From positions 124,001 to 188,000 of the forward strand of contig DASYHQ010000008.1 of assembly GCA_035998445.1 (NCBI GenBank): a stretch of 64,000 nt of DNA. The letters are read 5' to 3'. The notes beneath the pieces are model-generated. The model did not search any database, was not told where the DNA came from, and was given only the letters and a program-made list of their open reading frames with translations. Positions 15,264-62,591 of this stretch are shown piece by piece (positions within the stretch are counted from its first letter, which is position 1; each line of letters begins with the position of its first letter). The DNA is from Tepidisphaeraceae bacterium. GTDB lineage: Bacteria; Planctomycetota; Phycisphaerae; Tepidisphaerales; Tepidisphaeraceae. Made by a program: the position numbers and the translations under genes.

Positions 15264-15506
15264 GGTCCCTCTCCCATGGACTCGTGGGAGAGGTGAGGAT
15301 GATTTGAAGTAACCAATAACCAATGACCAAACCCGAATGACCAATCAAATCCCAATGAACAATGTCCAATGGGAAATCTTCATTGGACATTGGTGCTTGG
15401 GCATTCATTGGTCATTCGGGTTTGGTCATTGGTCATTGGTCATTGTCATCGCTCGTCGTTCGAAGCACCCTCACCTAACCTCTCCCGGCGTACCGGGAGA
15501 GGGACC
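15264..15506. repeat. Nested repeats: family E palindrome inside a family D palindrome
   Basis: The outer arms are family D: GGTCCCTCTCCCATGGACTC at the left, and CCTCTCCCGGCGTACCGGGA with GAGGGACC at the right. Inside, 15320-15345 and 15407-15432 form a perfect 26-bp inverted repeat of family E (CCAATGACCAAACCCGAATG...). Its loop holds a further palindrome around CATTGGACATTGG. The whole separates yggS from the small membrane protein gene. Confidence 0.85.
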
Positions 15507-15885: not shown

Positions 15886-16006
15886 GGTCCCTCTCCCATG
15901 TACTCATGGGAGAGGCTAGGTGAGGGTGATTTCGTTCTGACTAAAGCGGTCAGCAGTTCGAAATCACCCTCACCTAGCTTCTCCTAGAGCATGCGGGAAA
16001 GGGACC
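15886..16006. repeat. Family D palindromic element (copy D2)
   Basis: The left arm GGTCCCTCTCCCATGTACTC with GGGAGAGG and TAGGTGAGGGTGATTTC faces a right arm GAAATCACCCTCACCTAGC with a worn hairpin ending GGGACC. Each arm carries its own small hairpin. The core of about 25 bases is not conserved. Confidence 0.8.
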
Positions 16007-32219: not shown

Positions 32220-32336
32220 TCCCTCTCCCGGTACTCCGGGAGAGGGTTAGGGTGAGGGTGATTTTGATGGACGGGCGTCGCCAGCCGTTCGAAATCACCC
32301 TCACCCAGCCTCTCCCGGAGTACCGGGAGAGTGGCC
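32220..32336. repeat. Family D palindromic element between ATP-grasp and alpha-E genes (copy D3)
   Basis: The left half TCCCTCTCCCGGTACTCCGG with AGGGTTAGGGTGAGGGTGAT faces CGAAATCACCCTCACCCAGC with a second hairpin ending GGGAGAGTGGCC. The outer arms pair over about 45 bases with few mismatches. It starts seven bases after the ATP-grasp stop. Confidence 0.88.
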
Positions 32337-37009: not shown

Positions 37010-37491
37010 CCCTCTCCCTCCGGGAGAGGGCAGGGGTGAGGGCCGTCGTTACGAGCGGCTCTCGGTACCGCACGCTTCGCTCCCACGTTCGCACTCCGAT
37101 AAGATCGCTTCCAACACCGCGACCAGGTGCAGCCTCACATCGACGTTGAGAAATCGAACCACCCGCATCCCATTTCGTTGCAAGTACGCAGTTCGCGATG
37201 CGTCGTACGCCTCGCGCTCGTAGTGCGACGCCCCATCCACTTCTACGATCAGCTTTGAACCATGACAGTAAAAGTCCGCGATGAACGGTGGATGGGGATG
37301 CTGCCGGCGAAACTTGAACCCGTTCAATCGGCGGTTGCGCAGACAGGACCAGAGCTTTGCCTCCGCGGGGGCTTGCTCGTGGCGCATTGAGCGGGCGAAA
37401 GCTAAAGCCTCTTCATTGAGTGCGGGCTTGCGAAGAAAGTCCACTTCTGTAACCCCGCCCCTCACCCCTGCCCTCTCCCGGAGGGAGAGGG
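37010..37491. mobile_element. Possible mobile unit: DUF559 gene between perfect 33-bp inverted repeats
   Basis: 37010-37042 (CCCTCTCCCTCCGGGAGAGG...) and 37459-37491 are exact complements over 33 bases. Each is itself a family D hairpin. The only gene between them is the DUF559 nuclease, whose stop lies seven bases inside one repeat and whose start lies 14 bases inside the other. No target-site duplication is evident in the flanks. Other family D palindromes (15264, 15886, 32220, 62551) share the CCCTCTCC hairpin but carry no gene. Confidence 0.65.
37049..37444 (-). CDS. DUF559 (Vsr/REase-like fold) endonuclease
   Basis: A 131-residue protein of the DUF559 family, related to very-short-patch repair nucleases. 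Marks: ARSMRHEQAPAEAKLWSCLR, NGFKFRRQHPHPPFIADFYC with the Asp of the active site, KLIVEVDGASHY with the Glu-x-Asp-Gly, and the C-terminal LQRNGMRVVRFLNVDVR. These are the PD-(D/E)XK-type catalytic residues. The frame is open up to 37525, but that part reads through the repeat (LSLRERAGVRG), so GTG 37444 is preferred; the longer form is possible. It lies within a unit bounded by perfect 33-bp inverted repeats, which suggests movement together with them. Confidence 0.85.
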   Translation of the reverse strand: MDFLRKPALNEEALAFARSMRHEQAPAEAKLWSCLRNRRLNGFKFRRQHPHPPFIADFYCHGSKLIVEVDGASHYEREAYDASRTAYLQRNGMRVVRFLNVDVRLHLVAVLEAILSECERGSEACGTESRS

Positions 37492-62550: not shown

Positions 62551-62580
62551 GGTCGCTCTCCTGCATGCTTCGGGAGAGGG
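62551..62580. repeat. Worn family D half-palindrome
   Basis: GGTCGCTCTCCTGCATGCTT with CGGGAGAGGG gives a short hairpin of about seven bp in the stem. The match to the family D arm is clear, but no partner arm is present. It is 12 bases downstream of the nadB stop and may serve as its 3' structure. Confidence 0.65.
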
Positions 62581-62591
62581 AAAAGAGGCCG

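Follow-up and report, generated by a model that had tools for sequence, protein, structure and literature searches.

The 482-bp feature at positions 37010 to 37491 of the window, the 64,000-nt stretch of DNA that was analysed, is most readily interpreted as a minimal mobile element in an autonomous copy, consisting of a DUF559 gene and two inverted TM-type repeats. DUF559 is probably the gene that makes such a REP/MITE-like mobile unit autonomous, and pairs of the hairpins that lack the gene are best explained as non-autonomous, MITE/REPIN-like derivatives, standing to DUF559 as REPs do to RAYTs. A preliminary description of this DNA had proposed an autonomous unit with non-autonomous copies, resembling REP/RAYT systems and using a Vsr-like nuclease. 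The anatomy of the unit and the comparative genomics described below support that proposal, with the exception of the descent that it gave to the gene-less copies within the window.

The terminal repeats, CCCTCTCCCTCCGGGAGAGGGCAGGGGTGAGGG, are located at 37010 to 37042 on the + strand and at 37459 to 37491 on the - strand, and the second is the exact reverse complement of the first (0 mismatches), as had been described. No further match to this sequence at 3 or fewer mismatches was found in the 64,000-nt window, and none in 100 dinucleotide shuffles. The extended arms are 43 nt long and 93% complementary, with 396 nt between them. In each repeat a 9-bp stem closed by a 3-nt loop is followed by a tail rich in purines (CCCTCTCCC-TCC-GGGAGAGGG-CAG-GGGTGAGGG), with the hairpin on the outside and the tail directed toward the gene. 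The whole unit is intergenic, between convergent M48 peptidase and gyrB genes. The only gene between the arms, as also noted earlier, is a DUF559 nuclease gene on the - strand (37049 to 37444). Both of its ends were originally placed within 15 bases of the repeats, which is correct on the stop side, where the stop codon ends 6 bases inward of the left repeat (gene end 37049, repeat end 37042), while the distance between the 5' end and its repeat varies with the start codon chosen. The longest ORF starts at GTG 37525 and passes through the right repeat, and an in-frame GTG at 37442 to 37444 (codon 28 of the long ORF) offers a possible, and likely, start inside the repeats. Since this internal start is available and residues 1-28 of the long ORF are disordered in the structure model (pLDDT <50), the repeat read-through LSLRERAGVRG, once suggested to be part of the protein, is confined to the long ORF and probably falls outside the real protein.

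The protein matched the DUF559 family (PF04480) with 121.4 bits against a gathering cut-off of 20.6 (E=2e-35), with the domain encoded at 37091 to 37405. DUF559 was the sole Pfam family matched at E<=0.001, and Vsr (PF03852) was not matched. Residues E55, W59, Q75, D84, F85, E95, D97, H101, D108, R111, R124 and N127 are invariant across an alignment of 31 relatives, and would fit a nuclease active site. A fold search with the structure model gave 3HRL, a DUF559 protein of N. gonorrhoeae, as the nearest structure (Z 14.7). The nearest solved fold outside DUF559 was the homing endonuclease I-Bth0305I (PDB 3R3P; Z 11.0 over 94 residues, 18% identity), a resemblance that by itself shows no function, followed by Vsr (PDB 1CW0; Z 8.6), and the matches past these three were at or below the level that the tool rates as common. 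The unit is not an insertion sequence in the accepted sense: terminal repeats are present, but the only gene belongs to a Pfam family of unknown function.

The source genome (G000; 5.84 Mb in 64 contigs) contains exactly two DUF559 matches, both of which lie between inverted hairpin repeats, and beside them approximately 70 gene-less units. These repeats form two subfamilies that are related yet separate, called A at the window unit and B at the DUF559 unit on contig 41. TM-like matches to GGGAGAGGGNNNGGGTGAGGG at no more than 1 mismatch numbered 73 in this genome, versus 2 for the reversed pattern. When 40 further sites were read, nearly all proved to be paired-hairpin elements of ~110 bp with the consensus TCTGGTCCCCTCTCCCGGTACTCCGGGAGAGGGTTAGGGTGAGGGTGATTTCGA...GAAATCACCCTCACC..., which past the tail runs on with TGATTTCGA. 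Because TGATTTCGA is also present at both inner ends of DUF559 unit B, these elements most plausibly arose from B-type units by internal deletion, as MITEs, and the gene-less copies share their terminal inverted repeats with those units. Two of the gene-less palindromes in the window, located at 32221 to 32331 (L296; hairpin-tail ... tail-hairpin) and at approximately 15888 to 15999 (given earlier as 15886; right arm partly decayed), also carry subfamily B repeats. The other two, both on the + strand, are a lone hairpin-tail unit, truncated but belonging to the same superfamily, at approximately 15264 to 15305 and a decayed single hairpin that has lost its tail at approximately 62551 to 62590. 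All four had been grouped as "family D" copies of the window's repeat, and their derivation from the window copy is not supported. Other parts of the genome do contain gene-less copies that share the repeat core of the window unit (C17, C26, C41, C47, C56, C61 and C64).

Other palindromic sequences were observed in this genome. A second family, TGTCATCCCGAGGGGAGCGGTAGCGACCTGAGGGATCT...AGATCCCTCAGGTCG...GGGATGACA, lies ~60-150 bp from TM units (L297, L301, L009 and L010; G000) and resembles the CGTC-type REPs, for which we know of no transposase. The window also contains, at 15300 to 15410, a large inverted repeat (CCAATGACCAATGAACAATGTCCAATGGG ... CATTGG...CATTCATTGGTCATTCGGGTTTG) that may be another MITE.

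Flanking repeats were assessed across genomes by an arm score, obtained by local alignment of the left flank with the reverse-complemented right flank. Arms scoring at least 15 were present at 106 of the 142 scorable full-length DUF559 domains, drawn from all loci sets and several phyla, and at none of 30 canonical Vsr genes of the same phylum, for which the top score was 13. In a multi-phylum set of 80 loci (76 scorable), which is the one scan covering phyla outside Planctomycetota and is biased to close relatives of the query, 54% scored at least 15 and 32% at least 18, the corresponding proportions among 1,493 displaced control intervals being 0.3% and 0%. A comparison of DUF559 flanks with those of random genes had been proposed as a check, and a chance origin of the arms was rejected on the shuffles and control intervals. 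Within the family to which the window gene belongs, stand-alone genes of full length were flanked, with one divergent exception (L182); in large proteins, DUF559 matches that were weak, partial or C-terminal were unflanked. All 23 DUF559 genes of a set that we call Brocadiaceae-type, a name inferred from the genome set, were flanked. Some observations count against a mobile unit. Arms occur in two orientations, with either the hairpin or the tail outside, and 36 of the 141 rows of the DUF559 tree had no detectable arms. Relatives with bare DUF559 genes, which the preliminary description had named as grounds for doubt, therefore do exist, but flanking is far above the controls. On the tree the unflanked genes are interspersed among flanked ones, a scatter that fits repeated decay of an old association.

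Arm similarity averaged 0.81 within one unit versus 0.37 between units, and it followed protein identity (Mantel r=0.52, 0/2,000 permutations; 0.36 for pairs below 60% identity). This bears on the simplest explanation of the hairpins, that they are only terminators or mRNA-stabilising elements whose arms are identical through constraint or chance. The window unit does sit between convergent genes, a common place for a terminator, but the arms match each other beyond what a terminator needs and covary with the protein, similar units interrupt coding sequences in frame (see below), and Vsr genes have no such arms. Earlier work cited by Holder et al. (PMC4666352) likewise describes TM motifs as having no promoter or terminator activity. 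We consider this explanation highly improbable and have rejected it.

At least 10 units were found in 15 of 64 planctomycete genomes with a strong DUF559 match versus 15 of 328 without one (392 genomes; odds ratio 6.4, p=7e-6, uncorrected for phylogeny), using a single-pattern count in which divergent repeats, for example the CCCCTC type found in Brocadiaceae-type genomes, go undetected. Repeat abundance is thus related to the presence of the gene, as expected earlier, but not strictly, and the 15 genomes with at least 10 units and no strong match require one to suppose that the gene was lost or missed, or that a different mobiliser is at work. Genomes G381, G373, G205, G145, G272 and G004 carry 43-202 TM-like units but no strong DUF559 match, and G381 and G373 are single-contig assemblies that are 99-100% complete. 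In genome G084 the TM-like units form long tandem arrays (C1 569368-570562, C1 798935-804286 and C2 420359-421723), with periods of ~84 or ~173 bp in two of the three.

The repeats might be mobilised by RAYT-type (Y1/HUH) transposases, with DUF559 genes carried as cargo, and Y1_Tnp genes were indeed detected in 15 of the 17 genomes examined, mostly repeat-rich ones. However, no TM-like unit lay within ~1.5 kb of the Y1 loci examined, at which flanking repeats were different or absent, and no Y1 match was found in two repeat-bearing genomes, G084 (379 units, DUF559 gene present, 77% complete) and G172 (20 units). The first of these results and the Y1-free genomes make RAYT mobilisation very unlikely, and it also leaves a DUF559-repeat association far above controls to be accounted for. 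The window repeat has neither a GTAG nor a CGTC tag at its base, by the definition in PMC3733652. Many Y1/RAYT genes of the same phylum (L334-L363) were seen to be flanked by different inverted repeats of their own, for example GTCAGCCCCAAAGGGGCGACCGTTAATAGCCAGGGGCGGAAGCCCCTGG.

Comparison of syntenic loci, as had been proposed, revealed both empty and occupied sites. In G397, which belongs to the same family as the source genome, the M48 peptidase and gyrB genes are adjacent, with ~50 bp between them and no unit, representing an empty site. In a methylase gene of a Brocadiaceae-type genus, four genomes carry a paired-repeat insertion that two others, with alignable flanks, lack; relative to the empty allele the four insertions measure 93, 99, 120 and 129 bp, all multiples of three, and no clear target-site duplication was found in this alignment. 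The window copy is intergenic, and in-frame palindromic insertion, a trait of Rickettsia palindromic elements, was seen only in relatives of other lineages.

Complete DUF559 units were found in frame within MmeI-type, HsdR, HsdM and N6/N4 methylase genes, and every host that could be confidently identified is a restriction-modification gene (L046, L049, L054, L056, L052, L072, L087, L065, L114, L069, L113 and L098). This bias could reflect target choice, tolerance or a sampling effect. Insert boundaries were placed at the arms from alignments to solved proteins and from residue counts. In HsdM L052, the arms enclose residues 392-538, and host homology extends to residue 390 and resumes from 540. 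In HsdR L046, the unit at 379-528 lies between host residues 353 and 533, and 30 host residues remain outside the arms versus 31 in the solved HsdR. The MmeI-type protein L065 has its unit at 503-671, between residues 459 and 682, leaving ~54 host residues versus 47. By these alignments the insert extends from arm to arm in the HsdM and HsdR cases. Locus L175, in which DUF559 lies upstream of Sua5 in one open frame, was left out of the in-frame invasions, as it may be a read-through from a neighbouring gene.

The hosts raise the possibility that DUF559 has been domesticated as a nuclease that works together with methyltransferases in restriction or mismatch repair, and that the repeats are incidental. 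The Caulobacter protein VsrA, a DUF559 protein with a functional tie to a methyltransferase (PMC12907096), is in keeping with such a role. We regard it as unlikely, since only 7 of 88 flanked stand-alone genes had restriction-modification neighbours, no enrichment for the families tested (which omit C5 methylases), and since it leaves the flush arms and the gene-less copies unexplained.

A stronger alternative is homing alone, whereby DUF559 would cut gene-less alleles or repeats and spread by gene conversion, the hairpins providing homology for recombination and no transposition taking place. The closest fold outside DUF559 is that of a homing endonuclease, and the in-frame insertions look like invaded host genes. 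In addition, Nitrospirota and Ignavibacteriota hosts (L069, L113 and L098) carry the unit at one shared position of the N6/N4 methylase, as do three Brocadiaceae-type genomes (L049, L054 and L056) at one shared position of HsdR. Common host sites could also result from horizontal transfer of an already occupied gene, which is possible for the methylase site in two phyla, and homing to a fixed site does not explain MITEs at dozens of unrelated sites in one genome. We hold homing alone to be a real but lesser possibility than a REP/MITE-like mobile unit with DUF559 as its autonomous gene.

For the mobile unit, we suggest that the nuclease, which has a PD-(D/E)XK-type fold, would recognise the fold-back repeat and cut at or near it, and that repair of the break would then copy the repeat-bounded unit into the broken site. 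This cut-and-repair route, judged by itself, is put forward tentatively and falls somewhat short of an even chance. It supposes that DUF559 itself catalyses the movement and acts on the repeat, and that copying occurs by break repair and not by true transposition.

The window repeats match, letter for letter, the TM_ECO motif CCCTCNCCC N3-6 GGGNGAGGG N3 GGGNGAGGG described by Holder et al. 2015 (PMC4666352). That study counted 3,610 occurrences in 262 proteobacterial genomes, 23 of them in MG1655 and some in inverted pairs, demonstrated an intrastrand triplex in vitro, and never found mobility genes surrounding the sites in E. coli. As a simple mirror-symmetry score of tail versus stem, averaging 0.57 across the parsed units, did not convince, triplex folding is here considered possible only for units fitting the published pattern.

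E. coli K-12 has its own DUF559 gene, ycjD, located between sapF and fabI, and downstream of it are one TM_ECO-type unit and one decayed inverted unit. Among 5,426 complete E. coli genomes, 3,365 had a sequence match to ycjD, the median being one place per genome; the single locus and the presence of TM units on one side only count against the mobile-unit reading. The ycjD-fabI stretch, in which the TM unit lies, had a median of 20 similar places in genomes with ycjD versus 5 in those without it, an indirect count in a spread strain sample that is confounded by phylogroup. No clean empty site was found in the three ycjD-less E. coli strains examined (L395-L397; L394 has ycjD). In these three strains sapF is followed instead by efflux genes (MFS, outer-membrane and RND components). 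A gonococcal DUF559 gene (L199) also lies among TM-type repeats and, from its species and annotation, is presumably the gene of 3HRL.

It may be, and we judge the matter evenly poised, that DUF559 nucleases, YcjD included, are the missing mobility enzymes of bacterial TM/triplex repeats. The mobile elements based on them would then be a class of their own, with one protein of homing-endonuclease fold acting on fold-back, possibly triplex, DNA and producing both MITEs and the in-frame insertions into restriction-modification genes. In the open-access DUF559 literature we found no account of repeat-flanked genes, the nearest being that of Caulobacter VsrA; an earlier report in the subscription journals, which lay outside this search, is possible. 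The present results offer a candidate enzyme for TM repeats, which are abundant in many bacteria, and the first for a spread that had no prior explanation; with ycjD in K-12, the question of TM mobility can be tested in a laboratory strain. They also suggest what a large domain of unknown function may do biologically, and present a nuclease unit that sits in frame within restriction genes and leaves their reading frame open.

Several known systems share features with this unit. Vsr (PF03852) has the same general fold as the window protein, but the latter matches only DUF559 in Pfam, and Vsr genes of the phylum lack flanking repeats. The EDxHD homing endonucleases, which propagate their own reading frame, include I-Bth0305I; unlike them, the window unit has no intron or intein, and it has palindromic ends and MITE derivatives. 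Rickettsia palindromic elements (PMC10969869) are also tolerated in frame in protein genes, but the DUF559 unit brings its own nuclease, whereas no partner gene is named for those elements in the part of that paper considered here. The parallel with REP/REPIN sequences and their RAYTs (PMC3733652, PMC8266576) extends to a hairpin with a conserved tail, inverted pairs, and few copies of the gene beside many gene-less ones. It is a parallel with an unrelated enzyme, a DUF559 nuclease in place of a Y1/HUH transposase, and with the tail GGGTGAGGG in place of GTAG. This earlier proposed likeness is upheld by the flanking of DUF559 above controls, the unflanked Vsr genes and the different repeats at Y1 loci. 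YcjD of E. coli and NGO0050 of N. gonorrhoeae (PDB 3HRL) are likewise DUF559 proteins adjoining TM-type repeats, although YcjD has repeats on one side only and one fixed locus. As for TM_ECO itself, the window repeat fits its 9+9+9 nt pattern and inverted pairs occur in E. coli too; TM_ECO was described without a partner gene, whereas here the repeats bracket DUF559 and the gene-less pairs appear to derive from such units.
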